Below the pieces are notes generated by a model. The model saw only the letters and a list, made by a program, of their open reading frames with translations. It ran no database searches and had not been told where the DNA came from. DNA of 64,000 nt from Prevotella sp. GTDB taxonomy: Bacteria > Bacteroidota > Bacteroidia > Bacteroidales > Bacteroidaceae. This document shows positions 16,589 to 33,063 of the stretch, in pieces. Position 1 is the first letter of the stretch, and each line of letters opens with the position of its first letter. The position numbers and the translations under genes are program-made. The stretch covers positions 45,709-109,708 of the forward strand of contig JAFZIL010000036.1 in the NCBI GenBank assembly GCA_017554385.1. The letters are read 5' to 3'.

Positions 16589-18319
16589 TTAAATTGTTAT
16601 TTCTTCTGCTCTGACCATATTGTAGCCCTTAATCTGGACGACTAATAGATGGAGGGTGGTGCTCTTTATGAGAGTTCTTACCATTGGAGCAGTAGAATAT
16701 TGGCGAATTTGTTCAACAGCTTCTTCCCATTGAACCAAGGCAATGCTGTCATCATCGCTCTGTTTCAGATACTTCAACTCAAGAATGTAACTGTGCCCAA
16801 TCATGGGATAGCGGCTAAGGTCTGGCATCAGGAAAAAGTCACAATAACCATGACTTAGCTCCATTTCGGGAGCTGTCAGATAATAGGGATTCAATGCTAA
16901 ATAGGCATTCATAAACCCCTGGAGATTGCGCTCGCCCTCTATCAACTGTCTAACACTGGTCGTTTTCTCGTAGGCATCGGTTATCTCCTTTATCATCGGT
17001 TGCCAGTTGCCATTCAGAGCAGCTTCTGTATAGGAGCGGCTAAGTTTTCTTGTGTCAACGTATGCGATTTCCTGATATTGCCTATATAAGTAATCGTAAT
17101 ATTGCTTACGGACATTGTTGTTGGGAATCGTCAGTTTGACATCGGCTCCTTCTACATCTCCTATAGTCAGCATACCGTAATAGAAAAGCAGACTCACGAA
17201 ATTCTCTGCATTGGCCATGTCCTTCGCGGGGAATGACTCCACCGGGTTCTCATAGATGTAACCGTTTTCTGCTATCTCATTGAGCAATCCACGGCGGTTA
17301 CCATCAAGCTTGTCAAGCTGCAGCAACTTGTTCATCTTGGTATAGTCGGTACGCGTGTTGACATCAACCATCTCTTCAGGACCATGCCCTGTCTGAATGA
17401 CACACCTCAGATAGTAGCTTACCATGTCGCAATTAAACAGCTTTGGATCTTTATAGACTGATGCTTTTGCAAAGCAATAGTTGTCGTACCAAGGCTTCAT
17501 ATCAGCTATCAGTGTCTCTTCGTTGGCCTTGAGCATACCGACCTCCTGATAATAGCGTATCATCTGGCGCACATCGTCCTCCGAGAAACCGAGCATGAGG
17601 TTGAACAGCGGGTTCATCGTGATATTTGAGGCTATATTATAGCCGCTGGTTACGTCATCCATCGTCACGGGACTCACGCCCATCATCAGAATACGGTCGA
17701 AATTGCCTTTGAACTTCTTGAACACATCACGATAGAAACCTGAGGCATGGGTGAGGGCATGATAGACAGCTTCCCCCTTTTCGTTGAGTACTGTATTGGT
17801 GAAATTGTCGTATTCGTCAATAATCAGATACATCTGATGCCCGTTGGTTTTGGCAGCCTGGTTGATATAGTTCAGCTTGCCGTCTGTTACCTTGATGTTT
17901 TTCACATCCTCAAGATAACCTACAGGGTAGCGATGGGCATAACGCTGGGCAAAGTCGTTAATCATCACGTCCATGTAGATGTCGAAATATCTCTTGAGCT
18001 CGTCTATGCTGCCACCAATTTGGGAAAAATCCAAATGGAGAACCTCAAATGAGTTTCGCAATTCTGTCGGATTGTCCTTTATCCAAAGCCCGTCGAATAG
18101 TGTATCAAAGTTGACGCGCTCGTTAATGTCGTAGTAGGCACGCATCATGCTCAAGAAGATGCTCTTACCAAACCGACGTGGCCGTATGAAGAACAAGAAA
18201 TTGCCCTGATTCTCCATGGGTGGAAGGAACATGGTCTTATCAACATAGTATTTGCCTTCTCGGCGCAACTGCTTAAAGTCTGAAATGCCGTATGGGAGGA
18301 GTCTTACCTTTGATGACAT
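16589..18319 (-). CDS. AAA-ATPase-like / PD-(D/E)XK nuclease-like protein
   Basis: This 576-residue protein opens with LLPYGISDFKQLRREGKYYV and has the Walker A-like FIRPRRFGKSIFLSMM near residue 47, both hallmarks of the AAA-ATPase-like family (PF09820). Its C-terminal domain has GYCDFFLMPDLSRYP and YILELKYLK, the conserved Asp and Glu-x-Lys of a PD-(D/E)XK fold. These proteins are abundant, often multicopy, in Bacteroidetes and have been suspected to be mobile or defence-related; their role is unresolved. It is the only clear non-polysaccharide gene in the middle of the operon, only 7 bp from the GT2 gene, so it is transcribed with it. Confidence 0.88.
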   Translation of the reverse strand: MSSKVRLLPYGISDFKQLRREGKYYVDKTMFLPPMENQGNFLFFIRPRRFGKSIFLSMMRAYYDINERVNFDTLFDGLWIKDNPTELRNSFEVLHLDFSQIGGSIDELKRYFDIYMDVMINDFAQRYAHRYPVGYLEDVKNIKVTDGKLNYINQAAKTNGHQMYLIIDEYDNFTNTVLNEKGEAVYHALTHASGFYRDVFKKFKGNFDRILMMGVSPVTMDDVTSGYNIASNITMNPLFNLMLGFSEDDVRQMIRYYQEVGMLKANEETLIADMKPWYDNYCFAKASVYKDPKLFNCDMVSYYLRCVIQTGHGPEEMVDVNTRTDYTKMNKLLQLDKLDGNRRGLLNEIAENGYIYENPVESFPAKDMANAENFVSLLFYYGMLTIGDVEGADVKLTIPNNNVRKQYYDYLYRQYQEIAYVDTRKLSRSYTEAALNGNWQPMIKEITDAYEKTTSVRQLIEGERNLQGFMNAYLALNPYYLTAPEMELSHGYCDFFLMPDLSRYPMIGHSYILELKYLKQSDDDSIALVQWEEAVEQIRQYSTAPMVRTLIKSTTLHLLVVQIKGYNMVRAEEITI

Positions 18320-24304: not shown

Positions 24305-25408
24305 TCAGACTTTGCGCCCTGTCCGTATCAGCGAGACAAAGCTGCGCAGCTTGGCCGACTTGGGCTGGCAGTCACGCACATACTGCTTGGCAGCGTCGCG
24401 GTAGACAGGGTCCTGGGTAGAGATATAGAGGGCTATCCAGAGATAGGCTCTTGCATCGGTGGCAATCTTTGACTGTCGGCGCTGGTTGATATCTGAGAGC
24501 AATCCCTGTATCTGGTTACGCAGCAGCTTCTCGTCAGCCGTGTAACGGCACAGGTGGGCACAGATGAGCATCAGCGCAAGGAAATGGCTGCGGGCAGCCT
24601 CGTTTTTCACCTCGTGATTGCGATAACGGTAGAGCCGGGTCAGCATGTCGGCATCGCGACGGTTGATAATAGCATCTTCCTCACGGTTGACACGGTGTTT
24701 CAGGATGAGCAACAGATGGTTCTGCGTATATTCGATAAAATCGGTGCGGATGGCATCGGCCGAGTCACGATTGATGATCGTCACCTTGTTTCTGTCTACA
24801 TCGCACATACGGATGTTCATCACACCGGAAACCAATTCCACGGAGAGCTCCAGATGGATGGTACCATGAGACAGCTGAACGCGTTCGACCGTGGCCTCGT
24901 TGCCAGCAAAAGGACCGCTCGTTATCCTCACCTTGTCTTTCGCTTCTATACTGCTGATGGGCGGGACGATTTCGTACTGCCCGCGCTGCTTCAGACATGC
25001 CTCTAGGAAATCCTGCATCATCCTGTCAGGAACAGTAGCGACATGGCCATTGGTGTCTAAATAATGCTTGAGCCGGATGCGCGACCGCTTGTTCCGTTCG
25101 TCATTGACAAGACTGTTGATGTCAGCCTCGGTGGTCTTCAGGAAAACGATGTTGACAAAGTCGCCAGAAACAGAGTTGTCAGCATTTTTCAGGAAGTCGT
25201 ATGGATAGAAAGGCTCAACGATGGCCTTCCCTTCCTTCAGACGCTGGGCATTCTCCGTTTTAAGCCACTCCATGAAGCGCTTCATGTCAAGATGCGTCAT
25301 GATAAACCAGCAACAAGCGGCATTGTCGTCATTCATATACCAATGTTTGCCCGCACAGCCCTCCGCTGCACGAGCTAATTGTTTGTTGTTCAAATGGTTA
25401 TCTGTCAT
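24305..25408 (-). CDS. UpxY/NusG-like transcription antiterminator with a long C-terminal helical extension
   Basis: From the ATG at 25408 the protein has 367 residues. Residues about 30-125 look like a NusG N-terminal domain (HWYMNDDNAACCWFIMTHLD, FVNIVFLKTTEADINSL), and KDKVRITSGPFAGNEATVER near 165 is a KOW motif. In Bacteroidales, UpxY proteins of this kind load on RNA polymerase at the 5' leader of one capsule operon and prevent early termination. Being first in the operon fits that role. The protein is about twice the usual UpxY length: residues from about 215 to the end form an all-helical region I do not recognise. Confidence 0.8.
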   Translation of the reverse strand: MTDNHLNNKQLARAAEGCAGKHWYMNDDNAACCWFIMTHLDMKRFMEWLKTENAQRLKEGKAIVEPFYPYDFLKNADNSVSGDFVNIVFLKTTEADINSLVNDERNKRSRIRLKHYLDTNGHVATVPDRMMQDFLEACLKQRGQYEIVPPISSIEAKDKVRITSGPFAGNEATVERVQLSHGTIHLELSVELVSGVMNIRMCDVDRNKVTIINRDSADAIRTDFIEYTQNHLLLILKHRVNREEDAIINRRDADMLTRLYRYRNHEVKNEAARSHFLALMLICAHLCRYTADEKLLRNQIQGLLSDINQRRQSKIATDARAYLWIALYISTQDPVYRDAAKQYVRDCQPKSAKLRSFVSLIRTGRKV

Positions 25409-25489
25409 CAAGAGACCTCTCAGCCCCGCCGAAATTCCGTAATTGCACGATAAGCACTACTTTCGGCCAACATCTAACCTGTTTCTCCA

Positions 25490-25524
25490 CAAATATATAC
25501 AAATTGCGAAGTATCGGTTACAAA
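25490..25524 (-). promoter_or_regulatory. Candidate promoter of the polysaccharide operon
   Basis: On the minus strand TATATTTG (25490-25497) matches the -7 box TAnnTTTG, and a TTTG lies at 25521-25524. The spacing of 23 bp is longer than the usual 19-21, so the call is weak. It would leave a leader of roughly 75 nt before the NusG-like gene. A second possible -7 box, TAATTTTG, is at 25521-25528. Confidence 0.4.
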
Positions 25525-25602
25525 ATTACAAAATAATTATCTGAATTTTCCATCTATTTACAAGAAAAAGACATTTTTACTACCCGATTTAACATATATT
25601 AA

Positions 25603-25614
25603 CCCCCCCCCCCC
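25603..25614. repeat. Homopolymeric C12 tract between two divergent operons
   Basis: Twelve consecutive C residues lie about 30 bp upstream of the -33 element of the sensor operon and about 80 bp upstream of the candidate capsule promoter. Tracts of this length change size easily by replication slippage and can alter promoter strength. Confidence 0.95.
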
Positions 25615-25644
25615 TACAATCCCCTTGTTTTTTCATATTTATAT

Positions 25645-25675
25645 TTTGTAATATCAGAAATTTTGACTATCTTTG
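25645..25675 (+). promoter_or_regulatory. Bacteroidetes-type promoter of the sensor operon
   Basis: TTTG at 25645-25648 is followed after exactly 19 bp by TATCTTTG at 25668-25675, a full match to the TTTG-N19-TAnnTTTG consensus. Transcription would begin about 20 bp before the ATG at 25703, which excludes the TTG at 25673 as a start codon. Confidence 0.85.
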
Positions 25676-25702
25676 CACCACTTTTTGACAGTGAAAGCAA
25701 AT

Positions 25703-27424
25703 ATGAGTCATCACATAAAACTTATCGCACTGCTGGGCTGCCTGTTTTGCATCTCAGCCATCAAAGCCGCAACGGAGGACGACCTCTTGCGGCTTGAGGC
25801 TGATATGCTGAAATACATGGAGACCAAAGAGCGCGACAAGTTCTACAGTGTTACCGACAAGCTCAAAGAAGAAAGCAAGGAGGCCGGAAACGAGCAGCTG
25901 TTCTATAAGGCATGGAGCAACCAAGGCATATACGAAGCTGCCCAACAATACTATACAAACGCCCTCGACATAGCCAAGGAGATAAAGGACTACGCCCGGC
26001 AAGACGGCAGCATCTACGGCGAATATGCCGCCATGCACACCGAGGCCATGATCCTGCTTCAGAAACAAGACTATGAGGCAGCCGAGAAAGCCTTCCTCGA
26101 TGCGGTGGACTTCAGCCACCGGCGCTTCCCCAACGAGAGTGCCGCCGAAGACTTGCGTGAGCTGATGAAGATAGCCTACCTTCGTGGTGACATAGCGATG
26201 GCCAAGAATTACGCCAACCAGCTGCTGGCTGAACCGAACGTAGCCCCTCATCACAAGGGCAGGACACTGTCACGCCTCAGTATCATGGCCTTTGACGAAA
26301 ACAACGTTGATGAGTTCAACCACATCTACGAAGAGATGAAGAGACTGATGCAGACCGACCATATCAAGACCATCAGCCTCTACACCGAGGTGAACTACCA
26401 CATCATCAACGGTGACTACAAGCAGGCACTGCTCCTTGTAGACCGGCTGGCCGCCGACACCTGTGCCGAACGAAAGGCTCTCATCTACCACCGCCTGGGC
26501 GACAACGAGAAAGCCTACGAGTACATGGTGAAATACAAGCACCTCTCAGACTCCATTGCCCGAGCTTCGCACGACAACTCGATGGCCAGCATATACCTGC
26601 GCATGAACAACGACCGCTTGCGATTAGAGCAGGAATTGCTTGAAAACCAGAACAGCCAGTTGCGCTATCGATTCTACATCGCCATAGCCGCATTCTTGAT
26701 TATGCTGCTGTTGTTCATCATCTTCAAGCGACGCAGGATCATCAAGATGTTAAGGCGCGACAACACCATCCTGGACTACGGCAAGAAGGGCGTGGAGAGA
26801 GCACTCAAAGACCTGAACGAGCTGTCGCTCTACGAGAGCAAGACCGACCTTCCGCTCAACATGGCGGTGAAGGTGAACAAGCTCTGCGACCATCTGGCCA
26901 ACGTTACCCAGGTTCACTGCAACAAGAACGTGGTCGCCGTGTTCCAGACCGACTTTGCAGACGACTTCGAGATCATGACCAACTCAGGAGCATTGGAAAA
27001 AATCCTGTCACACCTGCTCAACTCTTCCTCGACCTTCACGCGCAAGGGCACCATACTGCTGAGGTGTACCGAAGCGGGCGAGTATGTCATGTTCAGCATC
27101 ACCGATACCAGCAAGGTACTTGCCGACAGATCCGGAAGCCTGTTAGCCGAAATATCTGAAGACAACGAAGACGCTACTCGCTACATCAGCATGAACTTCA
27201 ACATCTGCCAGTCCATCAGCCGTCTGCTGCACGGACGACTCTGGCACGACATAGAATATACCGAGGGCACACGCTTCTACTTCGAGATTCCCAAACGCCC
27301 CGCCATCGGCAGCCCCAACACCATTCAGCTCATCACACAGACCACTAACCGGAAAGAAAGAAAAGAGAACTCGATATGGACAAGAAAAGAATCCCCATTG
27401 CAAGACGACTCACGGGAAGAATAA
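25703..27424 (+). CDS. TPR sensor protein with degenerate histidine-kinase ATPase domain
   Basis: This 573-residue protein starts MSHHIKLIALLGCLFCISAI, a signal peptide, followed by about 280 residues of TPR-like helical repeats, a transmembrane segment near residue 325 (FYIAIAAFLIMLLLFIIF), and a C-terminal domain resembling a histidine-kinase ATPase. The N box reads LEKILSHLLNSSSTFTRKGT and the last part FNICQSISRLLHGRLWHD with EGTRFYFEIP. The usual SHE-R-TP phospho-acceptor motif after the membrane helix is absent and the DxGxG box is not recognisable. It is first in a five-gene operon and overlaps the next gene by 49 bp. I infer a sensory pseudokinase; its signal is unknown. Confidence 0.78.
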   Translation: MSHHIKLIALLGCLFCISAIKAATEDDLLRLEADMLKYMETKERDKFYSVTDKLKEESKEAGNEQLFYKAWSNQGIYEAAQQYYTNALDIAKEIKDYARQDGSIYGEYAAMHTEAMILLQKQDYEAAEKAFLDAVDFSHRRFPNESAAEDLRELMKIAYLRGDIAMAKNYANQLLAEPNVAPHHKGRTLSRLSIMAFDENNVDEFNHIYEEMKRLMQTDHIKTISLYTEVNYHIINGDYKQALLLVDRLAADTCAERKALIYHRLGDNEKAYEYMVKYKHLSDSIARASHDNSMASIYLRMNNDRLRLEQELLENQNSQLRYRFYIAIAAFLIMLLLFIIFKRRRIIKMLRRDNTILDYGKKGVERALKDLNELSLYESKTDLPLNMAVKVNKLCDHLANVTQVHCNKNVVAVFQTDFADDFEIMTNSGALEKILSHLLNSSSTFTRKGTILLRCTEAGEYVMFSITDTSKVLADRSGSLLAEISEDNEDATRYISMNFNICQSISRLLHGRLWHDIEYTEGTRFYFEIPKRPAIGSPNTIQLITQTTNRKERKENSIWTRKESPLQDDSREE

Positions 27425-28578
27425 TGATTTGGATGGTATTCGTTGTCCTCGGATTGTCATACATCCTGTTTCATTACGAGGGGAAAGCCGTTCGCGAATC
27501 CTATTCTGAGATATACCGCAACAAGATGCTCATCACCACCGAATATACGCGACGAGTCATCTCAGACGTATATGTTGCCGTGACCCACAATATCTACTAC
27601 ATAGAACATACGCTCGACAAACCCGACCTGCACAAGGGCACAATGGAACGTATTGTCAAGAGTGGAACGCGCGTACGAAGCTGCGGCATCAGCTTCATCG
27701 AGGATTACTACTACCCACAGAAAGAACGCCATTTCTGCCCCTTTGCCTGGCGAAACATTACCAACCCCGATGTTATCTATTCGCAAGACATGGGCGATGC
27801 CGACCTTGACTATCTCACCGCCGACTGGTTCCTTGACATTCTCAAAAGCGACTCGGCACAGTGGTCCGAACCTTTTTATGATGGATATGACAACAAGACT
27901 GCCCTATCGGCTTACATGGTGCCCATACACGATCAGGAAGGACGCGTCGTAGCCGTGCTCGGAGCCGACGTCTCACTGGACTGGCTCACCAACAAGATTA
28001 TCGAGACAGACAGCGTCATCAACCAGAACTCCATGTTCTTGGCAAATAAGTTCAAGATGAAATCATACAGCTTCATCATCAACCACGACGGTTCCTACCT
28101 GACCCACAGCGATGAAAGCAACATCTTGAAGGGCAATTTCTACAGCCAGTTAGCGTCGAGCAATGGCAGCGACGTGAAGGCGTTGGTAAAACAGATGGAA
28201 GCCGGTGTAGCGTCTGACAACAAGAGCTTCGGGCACTGTGTATTCAACGGCGAGGAATGCTACATCTTCTACATCCCCGTGAAATACACCAGATGGCTCA
28301 TGGTCACCGTCGTACCATGCCATGCCATCGACATGCTGGGCTATATCAAAGCCGGCACAGTGACCATCTTGATTCTGCTGGCCATGCTGCTCCTCTTGGT
28401 GGTGATACATTATTACATGAAGAACGCCATCGAACCACTGAAGCAGCTCACACAAGTGACCGACGACATCAACAACGGACATTTTGACACGCCAATACCG
28501 GAGTTGAAACACAACGACGAACTCAGCCAACTGCGCGACTCCATCCAGGAGATGCAGTTCAAACTGTCCAATACGTAA
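27376..28578 (+). CDS. Cache-type membrane sensor ending after a HAMP domain
   Basis: This 400-residue protein has a TM helix near residues 15-35 (IMIWMVFVVLGLSYILF), a periplasmic Cache-like domain with WFLDILKSDSAQWSEPFYDG, VVAVLGADVSLDWLTNKI and INHDGSYLTHSDESNILKG, a second TM near 320 (LILLAMLLLLVVIHYYM), and a HAMP domain (AIEPLKQLTQVTDDINNGHF). It stops right after HAMP, with no kinase, phosphatase or methyl-accepting domain. It starts inside the previous gene, so translational coupling is likely. It is one of four paralogous sensors in tandem and may act through a partner that has an output domain. Confidence 0.82.
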   Translation: MDKKRIPIARRLTGRIMIWMVFVVLGLSYILFHYEGKAVRESYSEIYRNKMLITTEYTRRVISDVYVAVTHNIYYIEHTLDKPDLHKGTMERIVKSGTRVRSCGISFIEDYYYPQKERHFCPFAWRNITNPDVIYSQDMGDADLDYLTADWFLDILKSDSAQWSEPFYDGYDNKTALSAYMVPIHDQEGRVVAVLGADVSLDWLTNKIIETDSVINQNSMFLANKFKMKSYSFIINHDGSYLTHSDESNILKGNFYSQLASSNGSDVKALVKQMEAGVASDNKSFGHCVFNGEECYIFYIPVKYTRWLMVTVVPCHAIDMLGYIKAGTVTILILLAMLLLLVVIHYYMKNAIEPLKQLTQVTDDINNGHFDTPIPELKHNDELSQLRDSIQEMQFKLSNT

Positions 28579-28608
28579 TTTGTACATTATCCTAAAAACT
28601 CGACTATT

Positions 28609-29601
28609 GTGGAAGAAGAAGCCAAGACTATATCCAAACGACCCTCACGCCGCGTCCTGCTAACCGTGCTTATCATATTGATTTGCATGGCCTCAATGGC
28701 TTTATTCGCCTGCTACCAATTGGTGCAAGCAGAAGCCTATTCGCGCTTTACTGGCATCAACAACTTATCGGCAGAGAAAATTTCCAGGATTATCAGGGGT
28801 ACGGAGATGAACGCAAACAATGTGTTTGATGAAGTAAGCATGCATCTTGATGATCCTGAGGGAGTGATTGCCGCCCTGAAGAGCAAGGTGAACCTGAACC
28901 TTGACGTGCGCGGCTATTTCGCAGCATTCACGCCCGACTATTTCCCCGAAAAAGGCACATGGTTCCAGCCTTATATCTACCAACCAGAATATGGCGGCTT
29001 TGACTACCGTCAGGTGGGCTCTGGACGACATAACTACACTAAGTCGCCTTGGTATGTCCAGGCATCATTAAACGGTAAGAGTTTCTGGTCGGATCCATAT
29101 TATTACTATGATGGCACAAGCATGAGTGGCCATTATGTCACGTTCGTAAAACCCCTATACAATGCCAAGGGCGACTTGGCGTGTGTCTGCGGAGCTGACA
29201 TGAAGTTCGAGTGGCTGGCCAAGGAGTTGAAATGGGTCGATGAGAGGAGCAAGAACAATAAAATACTCAATAAGTATCAGGTGTTCAGCGACCAGCAGTT
29301 CTACACTGTCGTACTGAACAACGACGGTTCCTGCCTGGCACATCCAGAAGAGAAGGAGTTTGGCATTACGGATAAGACCATGCTCAAGAACCTTCAGCAG
29401 CAGAAGAGCGGAGTGGCCGACATCGACATTGACGGGGAGGCTTGTACGGTCTTCTACGGCCCCATTGAATTCATCAACTGGTCGGTAGCTGTCATTGTGC
29501 CCAAATATGACATTCTGAAACCCATACTTCCCTTAGCCGTCACCTTCTTCGTGATGGTTATCGTAGGTATGATAATTGTGTGGTTGGTATGCAAAAGATA
29601 G
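28609..29601 (+). CDS. Cache-type membrane sensor without any cytoplasmic output domain
   Basis: This 330-residue protein begins at a GTG (28609). It has a TM helix near residues 15-38 (VLLTVLIILICMASMALFAC), a Cache-like periplasmic domain with WYVQASLNGKSFWSDPYYYY, CVCGADMKFEWLAKEL and LNNDGSCLAHPEEKEFG, and a final TM (LAVTFFVMVIVGMIIVWLV) followed by only a few residues. It has no HAMP domain. It shares the W(S/I)xP and DGS-x-L-x-H motifs with its three neighbours, which marks them as tandem duplicates. It may be a ligand-binding subunit of a complex. The start is uncertain, because no ATG occurs before the membrane helix. Confidence 0.75.
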   Translation: MEEEAKTISKRPSRRVLLTVLIILICMASMALFACYQLVQAEAYSRFTGINNLSAEKISRIIRGTEMNANNVFDEVSMHLDDPEGVIAALKSKVNLNLDVRGYFAAFTPDYFPEKGTWFQPYIYQPEYGGFDYRQVGSGRHNYTKSPWYVQASLNGKSFWSDPYYYYDGTSMSGHYVTFVKPLYNAKGDLACVCGADMKFEWLAKELKWVDERSKNNKILNKYQVFSDQQFYTVVLNNDGSCLAHPEEKEFGITDKTMLKNLQQQKSGVADIDIDGEACTVFYGPIEFINWSVAVIVPKYDILKPILPLAVTFFVMVIVGMIIVWLVCKR

Positions 29602-31115
29602 TCAAAAAGTTTATTTCAGCGCCCTCCATCAGACTTAATACAATGGTCGTGCTGGAGATAGTGATGCTGCTCGTCGTATCACTGGGAGTGCTGTTCTTCT
29701 TTACCCGGAAAGCGCTTGTCGAGGAATCGAAGATGGATGCTGAACAGCGCCTGGAGGGCACGGTACAGCACGTCGACAACATACTGATGACAGTAGAGCA
29801 GACGACCGGCAACGTCTACTATCGGCTGTTAGAGCAAATCGACCAGCCAGAGCGCATGTCGTTTTTCTGTCGCAAGTTAGTAGAAAGCAACGCAAACATC
29901 GAGGGATGCGCCATTGCCTTCAAGCCTAACTATTACCCTGGTCATGAGCTATTCTTCAACTATGTACACCGTAAGAAATACAATTCGCCGGAACTGGTTT
30001 TCACAGACAGCGCGGTCAACTATCCATATACTAAACATGAATGGTATATGGAAACCATGCGAACGTGCAAAGCCTCCTGGATTGACCCCGGACAGAACAC
30101 AGATAGCGGCCTTGAGCCAATCATCACCTTCTGTCTGCCTGTCCGCGACCGAAGCGGCGAATGCGTGGCAGTAATGGCTGTGGGAGTATCGATGGACCAG
30201 CTCTCTCAGATTATTCTCGAGACCAAACCGTCGCCCAATAGCTACAGCATACTGCTTGCCCATGACGGCACCTATATCATTCATCCCAACCATGAGAAAC
30301 TGGCTGGAAAAAACATTTTCAGCGACCCAGACGTTGCCGAAAGTCCCTCCGCTCAGATAGCTGCCAAGGAGATGCTGAAAGGCAACACTGGCAACATGTC
30401 GTTCCGAATAGACAACCAAACCAAGTACTTATTCTACAAGCCGTTTTCGCGCAACATTGTTCCAGGGCGTTCGATGGAGGCACTAAAATGGAGTATTGCC
30501 ACCATCTATCCTAAAGACGACATATTCGGCGAATACGACCATCTGGTGTTCCATGTCTTAGGAATAGTCTTCGCAGCATTGCTGGTGTTCTACATGCTGT
30601 GTCGCATCACCATACGCAAACAGATGAAGCCACTGGTTTATCTCACCGAATCAGCAGAGCGCATTGCCGAGGGACATTACGACGAGAGAATCCCCGATGT
30701 GAAACGTGAAGACGAGGTGGGCGTGTTCTACAACAACTTCCAGCTCATGCAGAAAGCACTGGAAAAAAACATCACCAAGGAGGAAGAACAGAGAGAGACA
30801 CTGCGTAAACATCATGAAGAGCTGCAGAAGACCCACCAGAAAATACAGGAAGACAGTCAAGTGAAGGCCACCTTCCTGCACAATGTCACCAACAGGATGA
30901 TAGCACCGGCAGAGGCTATCAGCAAAAGTGTGACAAACCTCTGCGACAACTATCAGAACATCACTTTGCCGGAGGCCGACAAGGAGATCATCAACATTAA
31001 ACAGCAGAGCGAGACCATTACGGAACTGCTCAGCCATAAATTCGATGCCAAAGTACCCAACGGTTCTGCCGTTGGTGCAAACTACCAGGCAGGAAAGGAG
31101 GACAACCATGAGTGA
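29589..31115 (+). CDS. Cache-HAMP sensor with pseudo-phospho-acceptor domain (His replaced by Asn)
   Basis: Starting at ATG 29589 (13 bp inside the previous gene), the protein has 508 residues: a TM near 20-40, a Cache domain (SWIDPGQNTDSGLEPII; AHDGTYIIHPNHEKLAGK), a TM near 315, HAMP (PLVYLTESAERIAEGHYDER) and a coiled coil. Near residue 430 it has FLHNVTNRMIAPAEAI, which lines up with the kinase H box F-x-x-N-(V/M)-S-H-E-x-R-T-P. The histidine position is Asn at residue 435 and the following Glu is Arg. The protein ends soon after, with no ATPase domain. It cannot be a conventional kinase; a scaffold or signal-relay role is an inference. Confidence 0.82.
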   Translation: MQKIVKKFISAPSIRLNTMVVLEIVMLLVVSLGVLFFFTRKALVEESKMDAEQRLEGTVQHVDNILMTVEQTTGNVYYRLLEQIDQPERMSFFCRKLVESNANIEGCAIAFKPNYYPGHELFFNYVHRKKYNSPELVFTDSAVNYPYTKHEWYMETMRTCKASWIDPGQNTDSGLEPIITFCLPVRDRSGECVAVMAVGVSMDQLSQIILETKPSPNSYSILLAHDGTYIIHPNHEKLAGKNIFSDPDVAESPSAQIAAKEMLKGNTGNMSFRIDNQTKYLFYKPFSRNIVPGRSMEALKWSIATIYPKDDIFGEYDHLVFHVLGIVFAALLVFYMLCRITIRKQMKPLVYLTESAERIAEGHYDERIPDVKREDEVGVFYNNFQLMQKALEKNITKEEEQRETLRKHHEELQKTHQKIQEDSQVKATFLHNVTNRMIAPAEAISKSVTNLCDNYQNITLPEADKEIINIKQQSETITELLSHKFDAKVPNGSAVGANYQAGKEDNHE

Positions 31116-33063
31116 ACCAGTAGTAAAACGCACCCTTTCCAAACGGCTCAGCCGCACCATCATGTTTTTGGCAGTACCTCTTTTCGTACTGTCCTTAGGC
31201 TTCTTCTATCAATTTACACGGGATCTCCTGCAAAAAGAGGCGGTAGAGCGGTCGCACACCATCCTCAGTACTACCGTGCAACTCGTGGAGAACTACCTCA
31301 ACGCAATAGAGACTGCAGCCAAGTCGAATGCGTGGATGCTCGAAGAGCACTTCAATCCCGATTCGCTGCCAGCTTTGTCACACCGTCTTGTAAGACTCAA
31401 CAGGAGCGTGCTCAGCTGCTCGGTAGCTGCCGAGCCGGATGCCTTCCCCGGATATGGTGAAAGCTTCTCGGTCTATTCCGTCCACGATGGCGACAGCGTC
31501 ATCACTTCCATTGAGCCGGAATACGAGTATTTCCAGAAGAACTGGTACAAGAAACCCATGCAGTCGGGGCGCCCCTGCTGGATCAATCCATTCAGCGATT
31601 TCACAGAAGGCGTCATCAACCATCACGATGCCGTGGGCTCATACTGCATACCTCTTCGACCGCACGGCGATAGGATTGAAGGAGTCGTATCCGTTGACTT
31701 CTCCTTCCAGATGCTACGTAAGACCATCCTCGCTACCCATCACCCATACCCAAGTTCTTACTACATGATGCTGGGACCCGCAGGAGGCTATCTCATTCAT
31801 CCTGAGAGCAGCCTGCTCTTCAAGAAGACCATCTTTACAGCTACCGACTCCGTTGAGCATCCTGACATCATTGCCCTTGGACGGGAGATGACAAGTGGCA
31901 AGACCGGCACTATGCACGTGTACTTTGACGATGTGCACTGTCATGTGGCATACATGCCCGTGATGGATGGCGGGTGGAGCATTGCTCTGGTATGTCACGA
32001 GGATGATATCCTGGCTGACTATAATCACCTGACCATTATCTTGATCATCTTCATCATCGTCGGCATGTTGGTCATCGCATGGATAACCCGAAAAGTCGTA
32101 CAGCGCAATATACGTCCACTGAACGAGCTGATGAAGGCAACGAAGAAGATTGCCGAGGGCAACTATGATACAAAGATTTTGTCAACTAACCACAAGGATG
32201 TGGTGGGAAAACTGCAGAATGCTTTACGCAACATGCAGCAGGCACTCATATCACGTCAGGAAAGCATTCGACAGAATGATGCAGAGATTGCTGAGGAAAG
32301 TGCAGAACTGGAGCGCACCCTGCCACTGGTTGAGGAAGCATCCAAGCGCAGAAAAACTTTCATACAGAACGTGTCGCGTCAGTTCATTACACCACTCAAT
32401 GTCATTGAAGGTCTGACACGTGTGATGCGAAGCAGTATTACATCCAGACGCAACAGTGATGCAAGCGAAAACAAGCCGTCAGACGACATTGGCGAAGTCA
32501 GAGCCATGATGAAGTATCATGCTCTTCAGCTGCTCCGAACCACCTCTATGCTTTACGACACCTCGGATACTGGCACTGCTGAAAAATCGCGTTATCAGAG
32601 AACTGATGATGTGACCTGCAATGAGTTGGCACACGAGACTATTAACTACGTAAAAGAACAATTCAGTGGTGCGGTCATTCATTTCGAAAGCGAACTGCCC
32701 GACAACCTTAGCATCAAGACCAACCGTCTTTACCTGATGCGTACCCTCAGAGAGATGCTCTACAACGCAGCCAAATACTCTGACAGGCAGCATATCGTGC
32801 TTCGACTCACACAGACCGACACCACTGTGTGCTTCATCATCGAGGACGTAGGCCCCGGATTGCCTGAGAATTCTAAGGAGTTGATTTTCATGCCGTTCAC
32901 AAAAGTCGATGACCTCACTGACGGACTTGGTCTCGGACTACCGCTTTGTAAAGCTCACATGGAAGGACTTGGGGGCACCTTCAGCTACGATGACAGCTAC
33001 CGTCAGGGATGCCGCTTCATTGCTGAACTGCCTAAAGAAGGAAATTCAACTTCTCCCAACTAA
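31108..33063 (+). CDS. Cache-HAMP sensor pseudo-histidine kinase (His replaced by Arg, ATPase domain intact)
   Basis: From the ATG at 31108, overlapping the previous stop by 8 bp, the protein has 651 residues: a TM near 20-40, a Cache domain (CWINPFSDFTEGVINH; GPAGGYLIHPESSLLFKK), a TM near 315, and HAMP (IRPLNELMKATKKIAEGNYD). The H-box-like motif FIQNVSRQFITPLNVIEG near residue 423 has Arg (residue 424) where the phospho-acceptor His should be. The ATPase domain looks complete: N box LREMLYNAAKYS, G1 EDVGPGLPE, F box IFMPFTK, G2 DGLGLGLPLC. ATP binding is therefore likely but autophosphorylation at the usual site is not. It ends the operon and overlaps the convergent mutY by 18 bp. No response regulator is nearby. 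Confidence 0.87.
   Translation: MSEPVVKRTLSKRLSRTIMFLAVPLFVLSLGFFYQFTRDLLQKEAVERSHTILSTTVQLVENYLNAIETAAKSNAWMLEEHFNPDSLPALSHRLVRLNRSVLSCSVAAEPDAFPGYGESFSVYSVHDGDSVITSIEPEYEYFQKNWYKKPMQSGRPCWINPFSDFTEGVINHHDAVGSYCIPLRPHGDRIEGVVSVDFSFQMLRKTILATHHPYPSSYYMMLGPAGGYLIHPESSLLFKKTIFTATDSVEHPDIIALGREMTSGKTGTMHVYFDDVHCHVAYMPVMDGGWSIALVCHEDDILADYNHLTIILIIFIIVGMLVIAWITRKVVQRNIRPLNELMKATKKIAEGNYDTKILSTNHKDVVGKLQNALRNMQQALISRQESIRQNDAEIAEESAELERTLPLVEEASKRRKTFIQNVSRQFITPLNVIEGLTRVMRSSITSRRNSDASENKPSDDIGEVRAMMKYHALQLLRTTSMLYDTSDTGTAEKSRYQRTDDVTCNELAHETINYVKEQFSGAVIHFESELPDNLSIKTNRLYLMRTLREMLYNAAKYSDRQHIVLRLTQTDTTVCFIIEDVGPGLPENSKELIFMPFTKVDDLTDGLGLGLPLCKAHMEGLGGTFSYDDSYRQGCRFIAELPKEGNSTSPN

Follow-up and report, generated by a model that had tools for sequence, protein, structure and literature searches.

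Five genes without a classical phospho-acceptor histidine

The window analyzed here is a stretch of 64,000 nucleotides (nt) of the Prevotella sp. contig JAFZIL010000036.1. At positions 25703-33063 it carries an operon of five closely packed genes, designated TPRK, S1, S2, S3 and S4, which diverges from a capsule operon. The first-pass annotation of this DNA described a TPR protein with a degenerate ATPase domain and four Cache-type sensors, and both the open reading frames and the Pfam matches agree with this description; the successive gene junctions measure -49, +30, -22 and -8 nt. All five proteins were confirmed to lack the classical phospho-acceptor histidine. This is not due to chance or to a local error, since the histidine is missing from 64 of 64 S3 copies and from eight of the nine S4 copies in the clade of the window.

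Pfam assigned a Cache domain (MCP-like_PDC_1 or dCache_1) to all of S1-S4, in each case flanked on both sides by hydrophobic segments in a simple hydropathy analysis, with a third, weak segment inside the Cache region of S3. HAMP was found in S1, S3 and S4, and not in S2. The earlier statement that the two remaining sensors end around HAMP is correct, S1 terminating just past this domain and S2, which lacks it, after its second hydrophobic segment. S3 comprises Cache-HAMP plus ∼110 residues; these do not match HisKA in Pfam, and the putative DHp-like part was recognized by its H-box-like motif alone. S4 scores 61.5 bits with HATPase_c and merely 16.1 bits with HisKA (cut-off 26.9), while TPRK falls marginally below the HATPase_c cut-off (26.2 versus 26.4 bits). 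The TPR matches of TPRK are likewise below the Pfam cut-offs, and one hydrophobic segment is present in this protein besides that of the N-terminus. According to Pfam, none of the five proteins contains a receiver domain, or a PAS domain up to E 0.1; Cache and HAMP are found instead.

The H-box equivalent reads FLHNVTNRMIAP in S3, with asparagine at residue 438 when numbered from the GTG at 29580 (435 if the start lies three codons later), and FIQNVSRQFITP in S4, with arginine at residue 424. Both substitutions had been recognized in the first-pass annotation, as had the N, G1, F and G2 boxes of S4, whose retention was upheld by alignment. With regard to the features of a HisKA-type kinase, the H-box histidine is absent from S3 and S4, the HATPase boxes are present in S4 only, and no regulator is encoded in the operon.

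Table 1. Coordinates of the five-gene operon, its diagnostic positions and the adjoining control elements in the window.
Feature	Positions	Strand	Description or basis
TPRK	25703-27424	+	573 amino acids (aa); hydrophobic N-terminus, TPR domain, transmembrane segment ~320-347, short stalk fused to degenerate HATPase; DHp segment missing
S1	27376-28578	+	400 aa; Cache-HAMP membrane sensor without kinase domain (Pfam, hydropathy)
S2	28609-29601	+	330 aa; Cache membrane sensor, stops after second hydrophobic segment (Pfam, hydropathy)
S3	29580-31115	+	511 aa; Cache-HAMP-stalk, putative DHp-like part by sequence motif, without ATPase domain
S4	31108-33063	+	651 aa; Cache-HAMP-DHp-HATPase, kinase-like, Arg at H-box position
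S3 codon AAC (Asn) at phospho-acceptor position	30891-30893	+	alignment of S3 copies
S4 codon CGT (Arg424) at phospho-acceptor position	32377-32379	+	alignment of S4 copies
S4 ATP-site motifs, all kept: N box (Asn553), G1 (Asp580), F, G2 (Gly606-Gly610)	32764-32937	+	
Putative Bacteroidetes-type promoter TTTG-N19-TAnnTTTG of five-gene operon	25645-25675	+	elements largely conserved in five aligned loci
Structured 5' leader of UpxY-like gene, 148 nt	25343-25490	-	covariation; 12/20 pairs changed both sides in 12 sequences
UpxY-like antiterminator gene (KOW), first gene of divergent capsule operon	24305-25336	-	ATG 25336 preferred over TTG 25411 (comparison with relatives)

The S3-S4 family, the His-less clade and TPRK

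S3 and S4 form a common two-gene unit, which is a family of its own within the genus: S4 matches at E ≤1e-10 were obtained in 100 of 150 genomes of the genus, including the source genome of the window. The copies compared were drawn from the regions of the better S4 matches, a part of those listed, and from three loci found via TPRK. Rows from L031 (same contig as L072), the first L050 piece, a SpoIIE-like protein in L067 and one S3 piece without the acceptor position were dropped, and weaker S4-like matches (two in L037, the second in L123 and one each in L135, L137 and L140) were left out. An S3 gene is located directly upstream of every S4 that was kept, except for one piece of a split copy in genome G025, and in 30 of 64 pairs the two genes share 8 or 4 nt. 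The H-box-like motif of S3 has the consensus FLHNMT-x-QMIAP; the protein lacks an ATPase domain, and its putative DHp-like character was judged by eye. Among 65 S3 rows, the acceptor position is present in 64 and is never histidine (N in 35, D in 23, T in two, and E, S, G and R in one each). Histidine is present in 56 of 64 aligned copies of S4, and glutamine directly follows this position in 63 of 66 rows. The missing histidine is of two kinds: in S3 it is a family-wide trait, and in S4 it is confined to one clade. The possibility that Asp, Asn or Arg serves as a new acceptor was rejected, as no single chemistry fits the residues of S3 (N 35, D 23, others six) together with those of S4 (R, N, T or Y).

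The source genome itself contains two His-type S3-S4 pairs, on contigs C52 and C4, whose S4 proteins are 42-44% identical to that of the window. In an order-level search of 295 genomes, 15 matched S4 at E ≤1e-40, the source genome alone over the full length; beyond the genus the matches at this threshold covered the Cache-HAMP half only, three other genomes of the same family being among those listed. Relatives of S4 were also sought in 298 genomes, six of which matched at E up to 1e-205, none with more than 66% identity apart from the source genome; the nearest S4 met outside the source genome is that of G384 (67% identity). No shared regulator gene was recognized around the S3-S4 pairs by clustering and by reading the protein starts, which did not include a family search. 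S2 accompanies several of the His-type units, and in L035, L079, L083 and L089 the gene 3' of S2-S3-S4 encodes a small protein (178-263 aa, AQIPYYAGTVGDGKLY or similar) that resembles secreted or outer-membrane proteins. A Cache protein of ~797 aa near an S3-S4 pair (L067:6048-8441), which matched S4, has SpoIIE-phosphatase-like and anti-sigma-like parts as read by eye. The distribution as a whole suggests that one kinase family of the genus is regularly accompanied by a DHp-like partner without acceptor histidine. The literature searched, chiefly openly accessible, yielded neither an operon of this kind from Prevotellaceae nor an S3-S4 family.

In a quick, midpoint-rooted tree of the 64 S4 rows, built with the histidine column excluded, all eight His-less rows fell into one clade of nine, the ninth member, G295 (L123), having histidine in the sequence NVSHQISNPLN. 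The replacement residues are R in five and N, T and Y in one each. Two changes of state suffice on this tree (0 of 500 shuffles were as low). The histidine could have been lost once and then regained or, at the cost of a third change, lost several times and retained in G295, alternatives that the tree cannot tell apart. The loss of the S4 histidine looks derived and not fixed, because G295 and 56 of the 64 copies in the wider family have it. The eight ATP-site positions that were inspected are all conserved in eight of eight His-less proteins. The H box, compared without the histidine column among pairs of 0.45-0.75 ATPase identity (means 0.57 and 0.55), is 0.53 identical over 21 His-less pairs (seven rows) versus 0.83 over 864 His pairs, the pairs not being independent; only 14 of the 864 were as low as the His-less mean. 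The contrast is smaller for the remainder of the first DHp helix (0.43 versus 0.50) and for the second (0.45 versus 0.53). In six of the His-less rows the H box, again without the histidine column, matches the consensus at 0.50-0.75. The window-type S3-S4 copy of G025 (L050:7131-10346) has a split S4 frame and threonine at the histidine position; S1, S2 and TPRK were not found beside it, the genome has no leader of the type described below, and its closest TPRK match is 26% identical. This copy, whose pieces were read separately, looks to be decaying.

TPRK would be a second disabled kinase. A search of 398 genomes gave, by colinear match among the matches listed (to which the following counts also refer), 11 copies of the DHp-less protein in 10 genomes. 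Relative to 13 DHp-bearing relatives, which were read out of 18 loci returned, all 11 lack a segment of ~58 columns that includes the H box, an absence that the first-pass annotation did not mention. Neither G1 (DxGxG) nor G2 (GxGxG) is complete in any of the 11; five retain the asparagine of the N box, the window protein not being among them. The DHp-bearing relatives (L129-L141) also lack the histidine in 13 of 13 cases (N in seven, D in four, K in two) and mostly keep the ATP boxes, although L129 has a degenerate G2 and the L134 frame stops at this box. Several of these loci are near genes for Cache proteins of ~800 aa with an adjoining gene of 101-102 aa.

The first-pass annotation had named relatives with a normal H box, or with an intact kinase in the same operon, as evidence against its reading of a sensor complex that signals without phosphotransfer. 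Such relatives exist in part: S4 has the histidine in most of the family and in one of the nine clade members, G295, where it belongs to the same five-gene operon, and S3 in no case. Its interpretation is upheld in part, as to the lack of a classical acceptor, a gene arrangement that fits a heteromer and the linkage to capsule genes, but it had drawn no distinction between S3 and S4.

Linkage to the capsule locus and control elements

The protein encoded by the first gene of the divergent operon contains a KOW domain (Pfam) and scores 46.4 bits against the NCBIfam UpxY model NF033644, under the cut-off of 100 (frame from 25411). The genes that follow encode a Wza-like exporter and a Wzz/GNVR protein, and then sugar transferase, glycosyltransferase, PGA_cap and epimerase proteins. 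A protein with AAA-ATPase_like and PD-(D/E)XK parts is also encoded among the capsule genes (16589-18319, minus strand).

The position of the operon, from which control of the capsule genes had been proposed, proved to be conserved beyond what could be seen in the window, as 10 of the 11 DHp-less TPRKs among the matches listed are found at an UpxY-like capsule locus, either divergent from it or inside the operon. The five genes occur together in seven genomes, in identical order in six, and they diverge from the UpxY-like gene in the window, G033, G072, G384, G295 and G325 (in the last with two genes between). TPRK is located between the UpxY-like and Wza genes in G144, G101 and the second G110 copy, and 3' of the UpxY-like gene in G066, where the contig ends soon after. 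The same number of genomes (398) was drawn in the UpxY-like and the TPRK searches and is taken as the same set. An UpxY-like match of some kind was present in 44 of these genomes and a close one (at least 46% identity) in 12, in 10 of which TPRK adjoins it or is two genes off; the 10 genomes with a DHp-less TPRK among the matches listed are all within these 12 (Fisher 2.7e-18, kinship ignored). The flanks 3' of S4 differ among the carriers, and the sensor operon appears to move, or to be kept, together with the capsule locus.

Between the divergent operons, the sequence TTTG-N19-TAnnTTTG upstream of TPRK is presumably a promoter of the Bacteroidetes type. The leader of the UpxY-like gene shows covariation, with 26 cells changed on both sides, a number reached by 0 of 500 shuffles (mean 6.9). 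The leader model, R1, scores 132 bits with the window leader, itself a training sequence. In 13 genomes, for each of which 150 first-look candidates were scored, 11 had a single copy of the leader, G325 two and G025 none. It has no Rfam match above chance (a single hit, E 2.9, in 25200-25800), and the matches 5' of distant UpxY-like genes were weak (E 0.045-0.74), with one of E 0.0025 elsewhere in L172. The second leader of G325 (L124:5524-5671, minus strand), which was not used in model training, heads a gene for an MBOAT-like acyltransferase and its neighbor (names by eye), and suggests that the same antiterminator has more than one target. LoaP, another NusG relative, works via a leader hairpin (PMC12691694), and by this analogy the capsule leader is a plausible candidate site of UpxY action. 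Between the two divergent promoters there is a run of 12 C (25603-25614), the sole C or G run of at least 10 in the window (0.02 expected from shuffles); a C7 run is found in the same intergenic region of L122. The C12 tract is a possible slippage (phase-variation) site.

Interpretation and relation to known systems

Several characterized systems resemble parts of this operon. DivL of Caulobacter, which functions without kinase activity (PMC4211667), is like S4 in that the acceptor histidine is replaced and the N, G1, F and G2 boxes are kept. S4 differs from it in having a Cache and not a PAS input, in being encoded together with three further sensors and a partner that lacks an ATPase domain, in its variable replacement residue and in its linkage to capsule genes. 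RocA of group A Streptococcus is a membrane pseudokinase that acts with the kinase CovS on capsule expression, and its own predicted acceptor histidine is dispensable (PMC7028121); however, RocA retains that histidine and modulates a His-bearing kinase, whereas here every co-encoded partner lacks one. FasB and FasC of the same organism are two co-encoded kinase-like proteins, one needed solely for its transmembrane and DHp parts (PMC12675982). FasC provides the essential histidine and FasA is a co-encoded regulator, unlike S3, which has no acceptor histidine in any of 64 copies, so that the FasBC-type division (ATPase from one partner, histidine from the other) does not apply, and no regulator gene was recognized nearby. 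The NusG-like gene resembles the upxY genes that head Bacteroides capsule operons (PMC7593976), although its product is below the UpxY cut-off; neither a linked pseudokinase sensor operon nor this leader was found in the accessible portions of the UpxY literature searched.

We tentatively favor, at close to an even chance, the reading that the operon encodes a pseudokinase sensor complex, including two disabled kinases, that serves the capsule locus without phosphotransfer. The ancestor was probably an S3-S4 unit, in which a Cache-HAMP kinase, S4, was preceded by a DHp-like partner with neither ATPase domain nor acceptor histidine. In the clade of the window, S1 and TPRK would have joined this unit, and the whole would have come to stand beside a capsule locus whose first gene encodes an UpxY-like antiterminator; afterwards S4 would have lost its histidine and kept its ATP site, and in TPRK both the DHp segment and the ATP site would have been lost. 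Sensing of the periplasm may be the role of the Cache and TPR domains, and S3-S4 with S1, S2 and TPRK may constitute a membrane heteromer, the state of which would be set by ligand and by ATP on S4. An S3-S4 heteromer fits the gene arrangement, as the two genes are adjacent and, in 30 of 64 pairs, overlapping. Its state would be relayed by protein contact to the capsule locus, acting either on expression, via the UpxY-like protein and leader, or on export. Signaling by conformation and contact, with ATP as a ligand, is the simplest reading, given that an acceptor histidine is missing from all the co-encoded proteins and that the ATP site of one of them is complete. Since the unit goes with the capsule locus, we prefer direct action on that locus to modulation of a kinase or reading of a regulator. 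A more specific version, in which phosphotransfer has been fully given up and the NusG-type antiterminator is gated on its structured leader by TPRK contacts and by the nucleotide state of S4, both altered by periplasmic signals, is in our estimation unlikely; if true, it would link a pseudokinase receptor directly to transcription elongation.

A number of observations weigh against this reading. The five-gene operon of G295 keeps the histidine in S4, so that phosphotransfer either was not lost throughout the clade or was regained. The H box of the window, like that of G072, matches the consensus at 0.83 without the histidine column, which equals the median His row, and relaxation of the H box would thus be a trait of the clade and hardly of the window copy. 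These are the chief facts that oppose a clean loss of DHp function. In addition, the linkage is not uniform. The other G110 copy has the order S2-S3-S4-TPRK-S1 away from the UpxY-like gene, and in G144, G066 and G101 TPRK is in the capsule operon without neighboring Cache sensors, so the parts of the operon are separable; G034 and G128, conversely, carry a close UpxY-like gene with no TPRK beside it. Judged by one housekeeping gene, Asd, most carriers are intermixed with non-carriers: identity to the source genome amounts to 96% for G034 and G072, 84-94% for the nine remaining carriers of a close UpxY-like gene and 79-94% for non-carriers (28 matching of 30 chosen genomes). Kinship nevertheless explains part of the co-occurrence, because the UpxY-like gene is present in both of the genomes that are closest by this measure.

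Among the rival explanations, the operon may act in trans, its S3-S4(Arg) pairing with a working kinase elsewhere, such as the C52 or C4 pairs, and tuning phosphotransfer there. We judge this somewhat improbable, yet it remains a serious rival because the source genome has two His-type pairs, and there are precedents in the action of RocA on CovS, of a ChrS pseudokinase variant on HrrS, and in FasBC. Those pairs, on the other hand, are on other contigs, each with its own co-encoded S3, and the five-gene unit tracks the capsule locus and not a His-type pair. A second alternative is that a phosphorylated response regulator binds to the His-less DHp domain of S4, which converts the state of the regulator into a conformational signal, as DivL, with tyrosine for histidine and its kinase boxes kept, serves as an input sensor for DivK~P (PMC4211667). 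The DivL structure 4q20 is among the sequence matches of S4 (E 8.2e-7). The histidine aside, 10 of 12 consensus residues are conserved in the H box of the window, which weakens the favored reading and raises this one. It is nonetheless distinctly doubtful, since no regulator gene was recognized beside the S3-S4 pairs with the means given above, and since the H box and its replacement residue (R, N, T, Y) vary over the clade, whereas the tyrosine of DivL is reported in nearly all homologues.

We consider it very unlikely that the acceptor has merely been displaced, S4, with its intact ATP site, phosphorylating another residue such as His434 of S3, four residues before the H-box position. Histidine occurs there in 50 of 64 copies with the position, and in six of the seven S3s whose S4 lacks its own; it does not replace the lost histidine, as it is absent from the G110 S3 (Arg) and from 13 of 56 S3s with a His-type S4. 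The prospect that the operon is a relic, decaying after kinase function was lost, is remote, although the H box is relaxed over the clade and G025 shows a split S4 frame with neither a close TPRK nor a leader. Full-length open S4 frames, 52-67% identical to that of the window, are present in the other six genomes that have the complete set of five, and the five genes remain together in the seven genomes, six with the same order. General decay is unlikely because the ATP-site residues are kept in eight of eight proteins and the frames are open except in G025.

Single histidine pseudokinases are already known, and the present operon stands out in that a whole set of kinase-like and sensor proteins lacks an acceptor while the linkage to the capsule locus is conserved. 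The change of the histidine can be placed on a tree, the ATP site being intact where the histidine is gone, and the His-bearing sister pairs of the same genome, together with the G295 operon, provide natural variants for testing its role. The operon also supplies a candidate regulator of capsule loci in Prevotellaceae.

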